This document shows positions 26,868 through 28,444 of a stretch of DNA of 64,000 nt, in pieces. How positions within the stretch are numbered: position 1 is the first letter of the stretch; each line of letters opens with the position of its first letter. Both the position numbers and the translations under genes were made by a program. Origin of the DNA: Thermotogaceae bacterium (GTDB taxonomy: Bacteria > Thermotogota > Thermotogae > B21-G9 > HyVt-16). The notes beneath the pieces are model-generated. The model did not search any database and was not told where the DNA came from. It saw nothing but the letters and a program-made list of their open reading frames with translations. The stretch spans positions 1 to 64,000 of the forward strand of contig JARRBB010000005.1 of the NCBI GenBank assembly GCA_029981435.1, given 5' to 3'.

Positions 26868-28064
26868 ATGGCAAAGGAAAAGTTTGTAAGAACTAAACCA
26901 CATGTTAACATTGGAACCATAGGACACATAGACCATGGTAAAACCACATTAACAGCAGCGATAACAAAGGCTCTGAGCTTTAAAGGACTTGCAAATTACG
27001 TACCATTTGACAACATCGATAAGGCACCCGAAGAAAAGGCAAGAGGTATAACAATTAACGTTACCCACGTTGAATACGAAACCGAAAAAAGACATTATGC
27101 ACACATTGACTGTCCAGGTCACGTTGACTACATAAAGAACATGATCACAGGTGCAGCACAGATGGATGGTTCTATACTCGTTGTCGCTGCAACAGATGGT
27201 CCAATGCCACAGACACGTGAACATGTCCTTCTGGCAAGACAGGTTAATGTCCCTGCGATCGTTGTTTTTCTCAACAAAGTGGATATGGTCGACGATGAAG
27301 AACTGATTGATCTCGTTGAAATGGAAGTTAGAGACCTTTTGAGCAAATATGAATTCCCCGGTGATGAAGTACCTGTCATCAGAGGATCAGCTCTTAAGGC
27401 ACTTGAAGCAGATAATCCTGACAACGAATGGGTACAGAAAATATATGAACTTATGGATGCAGTTGATAACTATGTTCCAGAACCTACTAGAGAAGTTGAC
27501 AAACCATTCTTGATGCCAATAGAAGACATATTCACAATAACCGGTCGTGGAACAGTTGTTACAGGTAGAGTTGAAAGAGGAAGAATAGTGGCAGGAGAAG
27601 AAGTCGAAATAGTCGGATTGAGACCAACTATAAAGACAGTTGTCACAAGTGTTGAAATGTTCAGAAAAATACTTGATGAAGGTATCGCTGGTGACAACAT
27701 TGGTTGTCTTTTAAGAGGTGTGAAAAAAGACGAAGTCGAAAGAGGACAGGTTCTTGCGAAACCTGGCACTATAACACCTCACACAGTGTTCAAAGCACAG
27801 GTTTACGTTTTGAAGAAAGAAGAAGGTGGAAGAAGTACACCATTCATGAAAGGTTACAGGCCACAATTTTACATTAGAACAGCTGACGTCACAGGTGATG
27901 TAATTGAACTTCCAGAAGGTGTTCAGATGGTAATGCCTGGTGATAACGTTGAATTGACAGTAAAATTAATCAAGCCTGTTGCTCTTGAAAAAGGTATGCG
28001 TTTTGCCATAAGAGAAGGTGGAAGAACAATAGGAGCAGGTATTGTTACAGAAATCATCGAGTAA
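26868..28064 (+). CDS. tuf: Elongation factor Tu
   Basis: [45 protein letters not shown]. Confidence 0.98.
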
Positions 28065-28075
28065 AAAACCAGAAA

Positions 28076-28124
28076 TAAGAGGAGTGGATTTCCACTCCTC
28101 TTACCTTCTGTAATTTAAGAGGAG
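28076..28124 (+). promoter_or_regulatory. Candidate RNA switch in the tuf-rpsJ intergenic region: 28-bp palindrome plus alternative pairing with the rpsJ SD
   Basis: taagaggagtgga-tt-tccactcctctta (28076-28103), no U tract; taagaggag recurs at 28116-28124 in the rpsJ SD. Confidence 0.5.
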
Positions 28125-28135
28125 GGGAATTAAAA

Positions 28136-28444
28136 ATGCCAGGACAGAAAATCAGGATAAAACTTAAAGCATATGATCACGAGCTTCTTGATCTATCTGC
28201 CAAAAAAATAGTTGAAACTGTTAAGGAAACAAATGCAAAGGTTTCAGGACCAATACCTTTGCCAATTGAGAGAACTCTTTACTGTGTTTTAAGGTCTCCG
28301 CACAAGCATAAAGACTCGAGAGAACATTTTGAAAAAAGAGTACATAAGAGATTGATAGACATACTCGAACCAAGTCCTAAAACAATAGACGCACTAATGA
28401 AGATAGATCTTCCCGCAGGAGTCGACGTAGAGATCAAACTCTAA
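28136..28444 (+). CDS. rpsJ: 30S ribosomal protein S10
   Basis: [25 protein letters not shown]. Confidence 0.98.

Follow-up and report, generated by a model that had tools for sequence, protein, structure and literature searches.

How might a single message carry two neighbouring genes whose products are required in unequal amounts? The cellular demand for EF-Tu is several times that for ribosomes, yet in Thermotogota the S10 ribosomal protein genes follow immediately after the one encoding EF-Tu. This arrangement is present in a 64,000-nucleotide stretch of a Thermotogaceae bacterium (assembly GCA_029981435.1, contig JARRBB010000005.1, positions 1 to 64,000), the whole of which is referred to here as the window. 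The upstream cistron, an open reading frame (ORF) of 398 aa at 26868-28064 on the + strand with its stop TAA at 28062-28064, is one that we take to be tuf from its translated sequence and its position after the EF-G ORF. The downstream cistron, rpsJ (ribosomal protein S10, 102 aa, with a PF00338 match), occupies 28136-28444 of the same strand, starts with the ATG at 28136, and opens the S10 portion of the cluster. Between the two lies a strong hairpin. Our best explanation, held tentatively and at somewhat less than even chances, is that it represents a phylum-wide intercistronic stem-loop of the rpsJ 5' side, a gate or insulator of S10-operon translation whose 3' arm is a latent anti-Shine-Dalgarno (anti-SD) segment.

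The core of the element is the palindrome TAAGAGGAGTGGA-TT-TCCACTCCTCTTA at 28076-28103 of the + strand. An earlier interpretation made without database searches (the sequence-only reading) had given its position and sequence correctly; the description of it as a perfect 28-bp palindrome holds for the palindrome and fails for the length, which is 28 nucleotides (nt) with 12-13 base pairs (bp). The arms are 13 nt long and yield 12 usable RNA pairs, with the 5' arm TAAGAGGAGTGG(A), the loop AUUU, and the 3' arm (T)CCACTCCTCTTA. The stem begins after a gap of 11 nt from the tuf stop, one fewer than had been counted. The predicted energy of the 12-pair hairpin is -20.2 kcal/mol, reaching -24.9 kcal/mol when CAGAA (28070-28074) pairs with UUCUG (28106-28110) across a 1x2 internal loop; this extended stem (28070-28110, + strand) is described for the window. 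The fold of the region was beaten by only one of 200 dinucleotide shuffles (z -2.84), and no second copy of the palindrome was found in the genome when up to 3 mismatches were allowed.

Conservation of the hairpin is far beyond chance. A search of 103 Thermotogota genomes with S10 matched 99, and tuf-rpsJ spacers were read from 97 of these (88 distinct spacers from 11 families, f1 to f11); the source genome is the sole member of its genus and family among the genomes compared. Matched by position, a strong hairpin (E <= -9.5) is present in all 97 readable spacers, and thus in 88/88 distinct ones across all 11 families, compared with 26 of 127 other co-directional gaps. The nearest relative, from the same order (G001), also has a stem at this position, but one of different sequence, TTGAGGGATGGA/TCCATCCCTCAA. 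Because a single phylum-wide MAFFT alignment loses the register of the stem, pairs were counted family by family. These within-family alignments, a covariation analysis of the kind that the sequence-only reading had proposed as a check, reveal two-sided changes that keep the pairing in six families (f5, f6, f8, f9, f10, and f11); the core of f7 is nearly invariant and so provides no such evidence. The loops are unconserved, with at least 40 different sequences among the 88 spacers. In several spacers of f9 genus g27 (L122, L124-L127, L131, L132), an outer helix could form between a GATTA upstream and a TAATC immediately preceding the GGGGGGG...CCCCCCC stem, and in the same spacers a long extra stretch of 36-65 nt separates the hairpin from the tuf stop.

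Where the hairpin sits relative to the two genes indicates which of them it serves. The distance from the center of the loop to the rpsJ SD has a median of 26 nt (quartiles 23-27, standard deviation 3.6 nt), whereas the distance from the tuf stop to the loop ranges from 10 to 76 nt (quartiles 15-32, standard deviation 17.4 nt); the tuf stop codon itself marks the start of the stem in f10, and 36-65 nt separate the stop from the stem in much of f7 and f9. Since the distance to the SD is nearly fixed and that to the tuf stop is free, the hairpin belongs to rpsJ rather than to the end of tuf. The arms are also polarized. Of the core pairs, numbers 2-7 from the loop, 513/524 join a 5'-arm purine to a 3'-arm pyrimidine, and 11 are reversed; in the window these cores are GGAGTG (28081-28086) and CACTCC (28093-28098), respectively. 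The loop-closing pair is mixed (57:31), and pairs 8-9 are reversed in 22/116. The same polarity is seen in 6/26 other strong hairpins of co-directional gaps, and the terminator-like hairpins of these genomes have no polarity bias. A pyrimidine 3' arm upstream of a purine SD thus has what a latent anti-SD requires.

The combination of these features is nearly specific for rpsJ. In about 1.26 Mb from 13 Thermotogota genomes, window included, a hairpin of comparable strength at the same distance from the SD occurs at 25/820 SD-supported starts, compared with 87/88 for rpsJ. When polarity is added to strength and distance, 4/820 starts are left, one of them the rpsJ of the window; with the latter left out, the three features together (position, strength, and polarity) are found at 3/819 other starts and 84/88 for rpsJ. 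Members of one family are related to each other, and these figures are therefore not independent; still, the hairpin is present in all 11 families, and only f3, represented by one genome, is below the polarity threshold in all of its members. None of 50 rpsJ loci from other phyla has this set of features.

These observations bear on an alternative in which the hairpin marks a boundary of mRNA stability or processing, shielding from nucleases the 3' end of tuf, the 5' end of a processed S10 message, or both, so that the levels of EF-Tu and S10-operon mRNA differ. The tuf and r-protein genes need different expression levels from one cluster, and a strong stem with an unconserved loop and little sequence motif suits such a barrier. 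However, a barrier predicts neither a hairpin that keeps its distance to the rpsJ SD while its distance from the tuf stop varies freely, nor the purine-to-pyrimidine polarity. We consider a stability boundary rather unlikely, though a serious contender.

A GC hairpin of this strength, placed between r-protein genes and a gene with very high expression, might instead be a partial intrinsic terminator, an attenuator that lets only some polymerases pass from tuf into the S10 operon, and some members of f8, f9, and f10 do have 4-6 U at or near the stem. However, a U-run of at least 5 follows just 8/88 stems, and none in f1-f7, f11, or the window, compared with 31/76 hairpins at convergent gene ends; termination was rejected as the shared function on this comparison. 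Within the window the longest T run is 2, and the + strand does not appear in the terminator scan. The terminator-like match is on the opposite strand, and the lack of polarity among terminator-like hairpins of the same genomes likewise argues against this explanation, which we regard as quite unlikely. The statement of the sequence-only reading that there is no U tract is thus accurate for the + strand, whereas the - strand is terminator-like. Read on the - strand (28073-28106), the palindrome carries the tail CTGGTTTTTT, derived from the AAAAAACCAG that follows the tuf stop. To judge from its sequence, this terminator-like structure could halt antisense transcripts before they enter tuf; on visual inspection, the A-tract behind the tail is not general in relatives. 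A promoter within the spacer was also considered: promoter scores there were no higher than those of shuffles, and the scan gave no match in the spacer. A transcription start just before the stem in f7, plausible by eye, was dropped on these results.

Can the arms of the hairpin reach the SD? The extended rpsJ SD, TAAGAGGAGGGG, is located at 28116-28127 (+ strand), and the TAAGAGGAG of the 5' arm is repeated exactly within it, at 28116-28124, as had been noticed from the sequence. The 3' arm therefore contains a segment for which the stem arm and the SD are alternative partners; in the window this putative latent anti-SD comprises the pyrimidine core together with 28099-28103. As reverse gyrase, a check for a hyperthermophile, gave no match above the cut-off, predictions are given at both 37 and 70 C. 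Blocking the 5' arm lowers predicted SD accessibility from 0.38 to 0.13 at 37 C and from 0.56 to 0.23 at 70 C, a loss that is abolished when the arms are swapped in silico. For the window itself, the prediction at 37 C has the SD paired with or without the block (0.03 in both cases) through a local partner, CCUUCU (28104-28109, + strand), which pairs with AGGAGG (28120-28125) in the minimum-energy fold. In f10 genus g36 (L128, L129, L133), a second hairpin of 10-11 bp could hide part of a doubled rpsJ SD, GGAGGAGGGAGG; with the arms CTCCTTCTTTG...CAAAGGAGGAG in L129, it is a candidate for the clearest SD-hiding structure of the phylum.

A translational gate consistent with these predictions would work as follows. 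Positioned just upstream of the site bound by the initiating 30S subunit and acting after transcription, the stem-loop would separate initiation at the S10 operon from the EF-Tu cistron, which is very highly expressed from the shared message, and would allow the one to be adjusted against the other. In the default fold, the purine 5' arm would lock the pyrimidine 3' arm, leaving the rpsJ SD usable. If the 5' arm were occupied, cleaved off, or missing, the 3' arm might take the SD and thereby lower S10 initiation. We infer the action on translation, the open state in the cell, and what would open the hairpin.

Several results weigh against the gate. The energy of pairing between the 3' arm and its own SD (-8.79 kcal/mol) shows no gain over that with SDs of other families (-9.02) or that of a shuffled arm (-8.97). 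Because these energies are alike, the exact pairing is untuned, and species-specific tuning was rejected. Accessibility of the free SD, 0.38, does not differ from the 0.40 of other genes; the idea that the rpsJ SD is unusually hidden was likewise rejected. A simpler reason for the polarity could be that it is partly inherited rather than selected, and a simple stability barrier would leave much the same pattern. The lack of pairing tuning and the normal SD accessibility keep the stability boundary alive; the SD spacing and the polarity are the reasons for which a translational gate is favored over it.

The sequence-only reading had proposed something more exact: mutually exclusive structures, tuned through the repeated 9-mer, that are flipped when a ribosome terminating on tuf covers the 5' arm and releases the 3' arm onto the SD. 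Its 9-bp alternative duplex is the strongest SD duplex of the 88 spacers, which makes the window an outlier among them, and is equaled by 1.5% of arm shuffles (p 0.015). However, among 88 trials a p of 0.015 is expected, so the repeat is not beyond chance, and the alternative CUCCUCUUA:SD pairing, at -11.7 kcal/mol, is 8.5 kcal/mol weaker than the hairpin. As for the ribosome, the usual toeprint edge (+15/16 from the P-site codon) puts the end of one terminating on tuf (28062) at 28074-28075, 1-2 bases short of the stem, rather than over the 5' arm as had been supposed. Such a ribosome would cover the CAGAA extension; when the covered stretch is masked, the predicted SD accessibility of the window goes from 0.03 to 0.02 (37 C) or from 0.52 to 0.26 (70 C).

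Across the 86 spacers assessed, a terminating ribosome would cover none or one base of the 5' arm in 45, the window included, part of it in 22, and most of it in 19. The last group consists of all of f10 and some of f5, and there predicted SD accessibility falls from 0.34 to 0.09, as the tuned and ribosome-flipped model would have it. With no tuning across species and no coverage in the 45 spacers, that model is highly improbable. More broadly, the earlier interpretation is partly supported: the alternative pairing is possible, the hairpin is linked to rpsJ, and blocking its 5' arm lowers predicted SD accessibility, whereas tuning of the 9-mer to its own SD is not supported, and the ribosome flip is neither the conserved feature nor a good fit to the window. 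By this modeling, a ribosome trigger is possible in spacers whose stem begins at the stop, is at best weak in the window, and is not general; where coverage occurs, the predicted sign is that tuf termination represses rpsJ. In f10, ribosomes finishing EF-Tu might hold the SD-mimicking 5' arm and leave the 3' anti-SD arm to repress S10-operon initiation, as one form of a phylum-wide gate at the EF-Tu/S10 boundary. We consider this unlikely; if true, negative translational coupling in f10-type lineages would set the ratio of EF-Tu to ribosomes.

Finally, the hairpin might be a binding site for a ribosomal protein: as happens in other phyla, L4 or a different r-protein could recognize it as an S10 leader. 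A conserved structure does lie upstream of an r-protein start, the location matches that of known S10 leaders, and Firmicutes loci show the S10-Clostridia leader (RF03136) upstream of rpsJ. However, Rfam gave no match in the window at gathering thresholds and, in a scan of eight loci with E up to 1, none in the four from Thermotogota. Judged by the diversity of the short loops in the 88 spacers, conserved unpaired residues are lacking, unlike in most protein-binding leaders. This explanation is improbable.

The tuf-rpsJ hairpin appears to be a control element not yet described; the literature searched, whose coverage left out most subscription journals, yielded no account of it. Occurring phylum-wide at a fixed distance from the S10 start, it is a testable candidate for setting the EF-Tu:ribosome ratio, and it adds a cis-element to a phylum with few described ribosomal leaders. 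If it works at all, it would act like the intercistronic or leader control of an r-protein operon, and it matched none of the described families with which it was compared. Like the intrinsic terminators of the same genomes, it is a strong GC stem in a gap; unlike them, it mostly lacks a U-run, keeps a fixed distance to a downstream SD, and has a strong strand polarity. In translational attenuation leaders such as that of ermC, the SD is paired or free depending on an arm covered by a ribosome, and a stalled ribosome frees the SD. In the Thermotogota element, in contrast, coverage would sequester the SD, and there is no leader peptide. The S10-Clostridia leader is, like the Thermotogota hairpin, a cis RNA directly upstream of rpsJ and its SD, but it differs in sequence and structure, and even with E up to 1 it found no match among the Thermotogota loci. 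The S10-Clostridia family probably reaches into Lactobacillales: rpsJ loci of Lactobacillaceae (L051:2888-2987, L055:2888-2985, and others) have a conserved leader, TTTTCACGGAGC...GTC...AAGGAGG, with scores of 34.8 (L051) and 25.0 (L055), below the S10-Clostridia cut-off of 35.1. The S10 operon of E. coli has a structured leader RNA controlled by L4, and the str operon has an intercistronic site before rpsG that is bound by S7 (PMC10931766). The Thermotogota element shares with the former its place as a structured RNA of the S10 operon, but consists of one short hairpin, between tuf and rpsJ, with an unconserved loop. With the S7 site it shares an intercistronic position in the same gene cluster; it has no known binding protein, however, and lies between tuf and rpsJ rather than before rpsG.
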